In this document: positions 9,924-18,279 of the stretch, piece after piece
Layout of the letters: every line of letters starts with the position of its first letter
Numbering within the stretch: position 1 is the stretch's first letter
NCBI GenBank assembly: GCA_903929535.1
Contig: CAIYVC010000125.1
Location: 1 to 64,000, forward strand
Reading direction: 5' to 3'
DNA length: 64,000 bases
DNA from: an uncultured Caulobacteraceae bacterium
GTDB lineage: Bacteria > Pseudomonadota > Alphaproteobacteria > Caulobacterales > Caulobacteraceae
Program-made: the position numbers and the translations under genes
The notes under the pieces: model-generated
The model's input: the letters and a program-made list of their open reading frames with translations, nothing else
Database searches by the model: none
Told to the model about the DNA's origin: nothing

Positions 9924-10388
9924 CTAGTCCCGGTGATACGGGCTGCCCTGCAGGATGGTGACCGCGCGGTAGACCTGTTCGGCAAGCATCACCCGCGCCA
10001 GAGCGTGGGGCCAGGTCTGGGGACCGAAGGCGAGGGTCTCGTCGGCCCTGGCCAGCAGCTCGGGCGAATGGCCGTCGGCGCCGCCGATCACGATCACCAG
10101 TTTGCGCACCCCGTCGTCGCGCAGCCTGGCGATGCGGGTGGCGAAGGCGCGGGAGGGATGGGTCTTGCCGCGTTCGTCGCAGGCGATCACGTGCGCATCG
10201 GCCAGATGCTCGAGCAAAAGCTCGCCTTCGGCGGCCTTGCCGGGCTTTCGGCTCTCAAGCTCGACGATATCGACCGGCCCCAGCCCCAGGGCGCGTCCGG
10301 ACGCGGTGGCCCGCTCGGCGTAGTCCTTGACCAGGCCCGCTTCAGCCGTGCGGCCCAGGCGCCCGATGGCCAGGATCGTGATCTTCAG
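9924..10388 (-). CDS. rlmH: 23S rRNA pseudouridine-1915 N3-methyltransferase RlmH, apparent CTG start
   Basis: SPOUT methyltransferase acting on helix 69 of assembled 70S ribosomes. The conserved C-terminal half includes IGGADGHSPELLARAD and the end LQGSPYHRD. The N terminus (KITILAIGRLGRTAEAGLVKDY) is clearly RlmH, but the only possible initiator is CTG at 10386-10388; no in-frame ATG or GTG exists and the first TTG (10217) would remove 57 residues of conserved protein. With CTG the length is 154, the normal size. The CTG overlaps the rsfS stop as CTGA, the same geometry as the ATGA overlaps seen elsewhere here. Confidence 0.9.
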   Translation of the reverse strand: MKITILAIGRLGRTAEAGLVKDYAERATASGRALGLGPVDIVELESRKPGKAAEGELLLEHLADAHVIACDERGKTHPSRAFATRIARLRDDGVRKLVIVIGGADGHSPELLARADETLAFGPQTWPHALARVMLAEQVYRAVTILQGSPYHRD

Positions 10389-10810
10389 TTGGCGACCGAC
10401 CGCGCAGGCGGCTCCACCGACCAGATCTTCTCGATGTTGTAGAAGCTGCGCACTTCGGGGCGGAACAGGTGGATGATGATGTCCCCCGCGTCGATCAGCA
10501 CCCAGTCGCAGTGCGGCAGACCCTCGACCCGCGCCTTGCCCGCGCCCGCTTCCTTCAGCGCACGCAACAGGTGGTCGGCCAGGGCGCCGACGTGACGGTG
10601 CGAGCGGCCGGAGGCCACGATCATGGTGTCGGCGACGGAGCTCTTATCCTTGAGGTCGATCATGACGATGTCCTGGGCCTTATCCTCGTCGAGGCGGTGC
10701 AGGATCATCTCTTCCAGCGACCCGGTGGTGGTCTGCTGGGGGTCTTCCGAAGATGCGCTCGCGGGCGCTTCATTCGGTACAGGCGCACTGGGCGCGGGTG
10801 GACGGTTCAG
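10385..10810 (-). CDS. rsfS: Ribosomal silencing factor RsfS, likely CTG start
   Basis: RsfS binds ribosomal protein L14 and blocks subunit joining during starvation. The core MILHRLDEDKAQDIVMID through SHRHVGALADHLL, CDWVLIDAGDIIIHLF and RSFYNIEKIW is unmistakable. An ATG start at 10706-10708 would give 107 residues and trim the first helix (SLEE lies just upstream). The frame continues to a CTG at 10808-10810 preceded by AGGAG with 8-base spacing, giving 141 residues with an Ala/Pro/Ser-rich leader. I favour CTG but ATG remains possible. Operon order obgE-proB-proA-nadD-rsfS-rlmH is typical of alphaproteobacteria. Confidence 0.85.
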   Translation of the reverse strand: MNRPPAPSAPVPNEAPASASSEDPQQTTTGSLEEMILHRLDEDKAQDIVMIDLKDKSSVADTMIVASGRSHRHVGALADHLLRALKEAGAGKARVEGLPHCDWVLIDAGDIIIHLFRPEVRSFYNIEKIWSVEPPARSVAN

Positions 10811-17047: not shown

Positions 17048-17845
17048 CTAACGGAGTCGGCGCGCCGCCCGCCTGGCGATCCTCATCACCACATCCTCAG
17101 GAAGAAGTCGCGCCAGGGCGACGATCACCCGGTTGGGCCAGCCGGTGATGCACATGGGCCGATTGGCCTCCACGGCTGCGAACCCCGCCCGGGCCACGGT
17201 CTCGGCGTCCTGCCACATCAGCTGGGGGATGCGGCCCATCTGGGCGCGCATTCCGTTGACGTCGTGGAATTCCGAATAGGTCAGGCCGGGGCAGAGCGCG
17301 GTGACATGCACCCCCTTGCCCAGCATCTCCAGATGCAGGCTCTGCGAGAACTTGACCACGAAGCTCTTGGCCGGGCCGTAAAGCGTATGGCTGGGCATGG
17401 CCGGGACCAGGCCCGCCACCGAGGCCACATTGATCACCCGGCCAAAGCCGCGCTCGGCCATGCCGGGGGCCAGGCGGTGGGTCAGTTCGCATACGGCTGT
17501 CACGAGCACCTGGAGAAACGCCTGCTGCTCGCGCCAGTCGGTGCGGATGTAGGTCCCCGGCAGGCCGTAGCCGGCGTTGTTGACCAGGGCGTCGACCGTG
17601 CGGCCCTCGGCGGCGATGGCGGCGACGAGACGTTCAATGGCGCCGGGTTCCGCGAGATCGGCGGTGAAGGTCAGGGCCTGCACCCCGAACCGGCCCTGAA
17701 TGTCGCGCGCCAGGGCCTCCAGCCGCTCGGTCCGCCGCGCGGTCAGGGCGACGTCATAGCCGTTGGCGGCATAGACGCGGGCGAAGGCTTCGCCGATGCC
17801 GGCGGAGGCGCCGGTGATCAGGCAGAGTCTGCGGGTCTGGCTCAG
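17048..17845 (-). CDS. Short-chain dehydrogenase/reductase, apparent CTG start
   Basis: Classical SDR oxidoreductase with NAD(P)-binding TGASAGIG (11-18), NNAG (89-92), catalytic Ser142 in ASVAG and Tyr156-x3-Lys160 in YGPAK. The Rossmann opening RRLCLITGASAGIG can only be included if translation starts at CTG (17843-17845), since no in-frame ATG, GTG or TTG occurs before the GTG at 17683, which would delete the cofactor site. The CTG overlaps the upstream Rrf2 gene stop as CTGA. With it the protein is 265 residues, normal for the family. Substrate unknown. Confidence 0.85.
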   Translation of the reverse strand: MSQTRRLCLITGASAGIGEAFARVYAANGYDVALTARRTERLEALARDIQGRFGVQALTFTADLAEPGAIERLVAAIAAEGRTVDALVNNAGYGLPGTYIRTDWREQQAFLQVLVTAVCELTHRLAPGMAERGFGRVINVASVAGLVPAMPSHTLYGPAKSFVVKFSQSLHLEMLGKGVHVTALCPGLTYSEFHDVNGMRAQMGRIPQLMWQDAETVARAGFAAVEANRPMCITGWPNRVIVALARLLPEDVVMRIARRAARRLR

Positions 17846-18279
17846 GCGGCCGCCGAGGCGCCGGCGCCCTCGAGCAGGTCGGCGACGGTCACGTGCGACA
17901 GCCGGTCTGCGGCGGCGGTGTCGGCGGCCTTGATGGCGGCGGCCACGGCGCGGGGGATGTGTTCGCTGACCGGGCAGCCCTTGGCCCCCAGCGTCGGCAC
18001 GCCCAGGTGAGCGCAGCCGTTCACCGAGCGCAGCACCAGATCAAGCGTGATGGTTTCCGGCGCCCGGGTCAGCCAGGCCCCGCCGCCCGCGCCCGTGCGG
18101 GTGCAGATCAGCCCGGCGCGGGCCAGCATCGCCGTCACCCGCCGCACCACCACCGGATTGGTGGGCACCGACGCGGCCAGAGCCGCGCTCGACACCGCGG
18201 CCGGCGGCGAGAACGCGCCCTTGTGGGCGAGATAGGCCAGCACATGGGCCGCCACAGGAAATCTTTGGCTATCGGACAT
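17842..18279 (-). CDS. Rrf2-family transcriptional regulator
   Basis: A 145-residue winged-helix protein of the Rrf2 family (relatives: IscR, NsrR). It opens MSDSQRFPVAAHVLAYLAHK and has the helix-turn-helix VSSAALAASVPTNPVVVRRVTA... around residues 29-52, and wing GAGGGAWLTRAPETITL. Three cysteines (in GLICTR, NGCAHLG and KGCPVS) might bind a cofactor, though their spacing differs from the IscR cluster. It is divergent from kup, with 213 bp between, and translationally coupled to the downstream SDR gene. Confidence 0.88.
   Translation of the reverse strand: MSDSQRFPVAAHVLAYLAHKGAFSPPAAVSSAALAASVPTNPVVVRRVTAMLARAGLICTRTGAGGGAWLTRAPETITLDLVLRSVNGCAHLGVPTLGAKGCPVSEHIPRAVAAAIKAADTAAADRLSHVTVADLLEGAGASAAA

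Follow-up and report, generated by a model that had tools for sequence, protein, structure and literature searches.

The window, a stretch of 64,000 nucleotides from an uncultured Caulobacteraceae bacterium, belongs to a draft, MAG-like genome (G000 below) of 3.02 Mb in 172 contigs, the only one available for its species. On its minus strand, two pairs of neighbouring genes share the four letters CTGA, in which the upstream gene ends with TGA and the downstream one would open with CTG:

17842..18279, minus strand: Rrf2-family regulator, 145 residues, upstream partner of the SDR (open reading frame and Pfam)
17842..17845, minus strand: CTGA junction, proposed start of the SDR (sequence reading); CTGA-only also in genomes G142 and G038
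17048..17845, minus strand: short-chain dehydrogenase (SDR), 265 residues from CTG, with the cofactor motif TGASAGIG near its N-terminus (Pfam)
10385..10708, minus strand: rsfS, ribosome silencing factor, upstream partner of rlmH (profile match)
10385..10388, minus strand: CTGA, CTG start of rlmH in the rsfS stop, with position 1 of the RlmH model at the CTG
9924..10388, minus strand: rlmH, 23S rRNA methyltransferase, 154 residues from CTG (profile match)

Two CTGA junctions in the window

At the Rrf2/SDR junction, CTGA occupies minus-strand positions 17845-17842, and its CTG (17845-17843) shares letters with the Rrf2 stop TGA (17844-17842). The SDR frame runs without a stop from 18040 to 17048. 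Its first ATG, GTG or TTG, a GTG at 17683, lies some 55 codons inside the gene, after TGASAGIG, and this motif is included only when translation begins before that codon. Gene finders restricted to ATG, GTG and TTG would shorten the SDR to the 211 residues begun there, the cofactor motif being lost; rlmH would be shortened too. Read from CTG, the SDR shows both the adh_short profile (PF00106, E 3.1e-42, residues 8-193) and the glycine-rich TGxxxGxG required for membership of that family, and the upstream reading frame matches Rrf2 (4.2e-26). An earlier note on this DNA had placed the SDR start at the CTG in the Rrf2 stop, with the motif ahead of every conventional start; the reading frames and the junction bear this out. 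A paralogue of the SDR elsewhere in the genome (contig C63, 20011-20799, L004), 48% identical, has an ordinary ATG start.

The same note had seen this arrangement twice, and its earlier CTGA is most likely the rsfS/rlmH junction at 10388-10385 on the minus strand, 7.5 kb off. This is the stronger of the window's two CTGA cases. Both partners are well matched in Pfam (SPOUT_MTase, 1.4e-39, for rlmH; RsfS, 2.9e-32, for rsfS), and the NCBI model NF000988 recognizes RlmH at 240.2 bits, above its cut-off of 199, with protein residues 1-154 on model positions 1-156. In this alignment the CTG is exactly residue 1 of RlmH, the gene opening CTG AAG ATC ACG ATC. Compared with the aligned rlmH of G002, which also has a CTG start, dN/dS is 0.085; a value of 0.96 for the same two genomes was rejected as an artefact of an unaligned indel. 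Both junctions thus have the four-nucleotide sharing of stop and start on one strand that characterizes ATGA-type pairs. The ATG, GTG or TTG start of such pairs is lacking, with none in frame within 60 nt on either side.

The junctions in related genomes

Of 149 family genomes, 145 have a match to RlmH; the start of rlmH was read in 130 of them, the 15 left out including two truncated loci. ATG opens the gene in 72 genomes, GTG in 23, TTG in 21 and CTG in 14. Twelve of the 14 CTG starts lie inside an overlap with the rsfS stop, as against 3 of the 116 other starts, all three TTGA. The CTGA overlap is thus present in 12/130 family genomes, from five genera:

Genus g1: G000, G002
Genus g6: G087
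Genus g15: G016, G031, G043
Genus g22: G023, G047
Genus g21: G022, G035, G054, G104 (loci L178, L171, L134, L168)

In g21, rlmH opens CTG AGC CTN: here the CTGA lies 6 nt, or two codons, ahead of the point where the gene usually starts, and the codon at that point is CTT, CTA, CTC or CTG. The association between CTG and overlap gives a Fisher p of 1.4e-12, a statistic that ignores kinship; a phylogeny-aware pairs test retained three usable pairs, on starred branches only, with a median p of 0.5. On the best rsfS/rlmH tree (109 rows and 143 columns, 21 rows without a readable rsfS being dropped), in which many forks are open, the CTGA-overlap state changes five times. CTG-start rlmH genes are under purifying selection, with dN/dS of 0.06-0.20 in nine pairs. 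CTG starts of rlmH are also found without stop overlap in G041 (L142), G107 (L093) and at L301, so that overlap is not required. Shine-Dalgarno pairing is predicted to be stronger in G107 and G041 (mean -6.2 kcal/mol), an estimate of anti-SD strength that does not cleanly separate the start groups.

A wider pattern search matched 83 of 390 family genomes. Among the 34 matches that were typed, 32 are true overlaps, opening with C in 15, T in 15, G in 2 and A in none. The pattern is incomplete and misses, for example, G002 and G087; applied to 385 genomes spread over the class, it matched G000 alone. In a collection of named genomes, 40 stretches fitted the CTGA pattern, of which 25 are not rsfS/rlmH and were set aside. 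Of the 15 real pairs, 14 are titled Caulobacter, Phenylobacterium or Caulobacteraceae, and the remaining one, titled only ‘bacterium’, lies near the Phenylobacterium ones. Thirteen are exact CTGA overlaps and one has the form CTGAGCCTG; in Phenylobacterium sp. Root1290, the CTG of rlmH is beyond a TAA.

The Rrf2/SDR pair is common in the family. Rrf2 is matched in 98 and the SDR in 139 of the 149 Caulobacteraceae genomes, many of them adjacent, and this recurrent pair suggests a predicted redox- or electrophile-sensing operon. Junctions were read in 50 rows from 48 genomes, picked mostly for closeness of both genes; in two further rows the SDR start was not found. CTGA without a conventional start occurs in 3/48 genomes: the window genome, G142 (CTG AGC GGC CAA) and G038 (CTG AGC CGC TCC, with 18 extra nt ahead of the conserved part). 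The overlap takes the form ATGA in G004, G065 and G049, GTGA in G111, G080 and G134, and TTGA in G091, the remaining rows having CTGATG or a separate start. With these relatives in view, the Rrf2/SDR CTGA is no longer an isolated curiosity but a recurring arrangement.

All 29 of the other best-matching family loci examined have an ATG at residue 3 of the window SDR, two codons further in. The same-genus relative G001 carries the pair, with 74% identity to the window for the SDR and 94% for Rrf2; no close match of the SDR was found in G002. In G001, the Rrf2 stop is followed by about 16 nt and then ATG ACG CGC CGG CTC TGC. The window, about 14 nt shorter, reads CAG ACC CGC AGA CTC TGC at that position.

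CTG among the start codons of the genome

The census of G000 took in the window plus 40 contig stretches, 518,664 bases (17% of the genome) in all. A codon-based caller kept 418 strong open reading frames, of which the 375 complete ones were examined; a frame was flagged when no ATG, GTG or TTG lay in the interval between 90 nt upstream and 60 nt downstream of its coding onset. Only three of the 375 were flagged: the SDR, rlmH and one frame without an upstream gene. With two of the three at CTGA, this is more than chance loss of start codons, but infrequent. The third (L369 15141-15708, plus strand, contig C39) opens right after a stop and has no upstream gene on its strand.

In-frame junctions of the NTGA type begin with A in 33 cases, G in 12, T in 4 and C in 17. 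Another start lies nearby in 14 of the 17 CTGA junctions. Of the three without one, just two have their coding onset near the junction, both in the window; the remaining 455 kb of the sample yielded no CTGA-only junction, so that the presence of two in 8 kb owes something to the luck of this window. CTG therefore accounts for about 2/51 (~4%) of the starts at four-base overlaps. Yet C is the commonest base before TGA, in 91/164 strong frames (55%) compared with 10/164 for T, so that CTG is tolerated rather than favoured and even avoided relative to its supply. The even ratio of T to C at the rlmH overlaps (15:15, many close kin included), where T stands above that supply, points the same way.

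The earlier note had proposed a genome survey as the test that could refute CTGA as a signal enriched in this lineage, and the 2/51 overlaps obtained despite the abundance of C speak against enrichment. Its idea of a tolerated coupled-start signal survives as far as tolerance is concerned, given the 12/130 genomes at rsfS/rlmH and the 3/48 at Rrf2/SDR; as an enriched signal, it fails in the 17% sample. CTG at an overlap is an uncommon, tolerated start and not a lineage-wide signal.

The one-contig relative G047 was surveyed over 400 kb in a comparable way, and two of the 266 frames examined there were flagged. One of these (L341, 9674, minus strand), serine-hydrolase-like by eye, was rejected as a CTGA-only case, an ATG lying about 31 codons in. 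The second opens next to what looks, by eye, like a tRNA.

Such a low rate is familiar from C. crescentus, of the same family, in which ribosome profiling and LC-MS of 3235 CDSs gave 74.3% ATG, 14.5% GTG, 10.3% TTG and 0.7% CTG starts, a Shine-Dalgarno site preceding only 24.6% of all starts (Schrader et al. 2014, PMC4117421, in its available text). The 0.7% is close to the 2/375 strong complete frames (below 1%) found here, although the C. crescentus starts were mapped by profiling and ours are deduced from sequence; the available text draws no link to overlaps. Such CTG starts had thus been measured in Caulobacter before, and rsfS/rlmH and Rrf2/SDR provide a natural test case. At ATGA and TGATG overlaps, termination-reinitiation is an established process (Huber et al. 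2019, PMC6728339), and a 2023 follow-up gives four-nucleotide overlaps as ATGA or GTGA (PMC10666635); CTGA is absent from the main texts of both. The window junctions share with these pairs the four-nucleotide overlap on one strand, with no intergenic gap, but start with CTG and are putatively coupled. Switches to CUG between close relatives are documented as very rare (2/61,358 ancestral AUG starts; PMC5622118, available text), whereas here CTG recurs at one junction. According to the accessible part of PMC11497404, CUG pairs weakly at its first position when initiation complexes carry a variant initiator tRNA. The literature searched, mostly outside subscription texts and supplements, describes neither CTGA junctions nor a CTG start of rlmH, and no priority is claimed.

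Reinitiation on CTG and its alternatives

The reading that we favour, at a probability of about 0.7, is that the SDR is translated from CTG through termination-reinitiation at the overlapping Rrf2 TGA, on a weak start codon. The ribosome would end Rrf2 at TGA and then restart on the overlapping CTG, as at ATGA junctions, the initiator tRNA reading CTG as fMet. CTG would be a poor start made usable by termination-reinitiation, tolerated for two reasons: the terminating ribosome already sits there, and in high-GC genomes about half of the genes have a C in front of TGA. As for the order of events, which we infer from the comparison with the sister species G001, the ordinary SDR start would have been lost through the net deletion of about 14 nt.

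Loss of that start may also have left a young pseudogene or a weakly expressed gene, which we regard as unlikely. The start codon conserved in relatives is indeed absent, the SDR dN/dS between the window and G001 (0.325) is higher than that of rlmH, and the distance to the outgroup is slightly greater for the window (dN 0.257) than for G001 (0.215). Nevertheless, the frame is intact over 265 codons without a stop, the deletion fell in the sole phase that gives a CTG overlap, and G142 and G038 offer parallel CTGA cases.

An assembly or sequencing error that deleted a real ATG of the SDR is, in our view, quite improbable. The draft state of this lone 172-contig genome and the ATG kept in 29/29 other loci would fit such an error, which would nevertheless have to remove a net ~14 nt and still end in the overlap phase with an open frame. 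The CTGA-only junctions of G142 and G038 speak against it, as does the CTGA rlmH seen in many assemblies, among them that of G047, in one contig, and that of the named isolate Caulobacter sp. SLTY. The earlier note had argued against a sequencing error, and the recurrence of CTGA in relatives strengthens its case: at rlmH an error is now unlikely, and at the SDR it is less likely than before.

There is little to recommend a start of the SDR at some other near-cognate codon, either upstream or at a second in-frame CTG at residue 9, just ahead of ITGASAGIG. Beginning at the latter would presumably cut the first Rossmann strand of the SDR fold, upstream codons fall within the Rrf2 coding sequence, and in most relatives the SDR starts no more than two codons from the first CTG. 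Other near-cognate starts do occur, in 0.25% of C. crescentus CDSs (PMC4117421, available text). Hardly credible is a -1 frameshift fusing each downstream protein to its upstream neighbour with no new start: the downstream frames are open above the junctions (195 nt for the SDR, 255 nt for rlmH), but direct reading revealed no slippery heptamer at either one, the CTG coincides exactly with the RlmH start residue, relatives have separate genes with free ATG, GTG or TTG starts, and the rlmH frame of G043 opens just 21 nt upstream.

Beyond reinitiation at the SDR, a broader and rather doubtful proposal is that Caulobacteraceae ribosomes accept after termination a CTG that they mostly refuse in ordinary initiation, CTGA being then a functional reinitiation junction. 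If so, there would be a class of start codon whose use depends on an overlapping stop codon, with rsfS/rlmH as a standing natural example, repeatedly gained or lost in five genera, and Rrf2/SDR as a fresh one created by a small deletion. In near kin of a model organism, rsfS/rlmH comes with CTGA, TTGA, GTGA or separated starts, a ready set for asking if reinitiating ribosomes proofread the start codon less strictly, a question that for CTG lies outside the available texts of PMC6728339 and PMC10666635. In the Phenylobacterium-like genus g6, TTGA outnumbers CTGA by 14 to 4 at rsfS/rlmH, though T rarely precedes TGA, a surplus hinting at possible selection on this base as part of a start codon.
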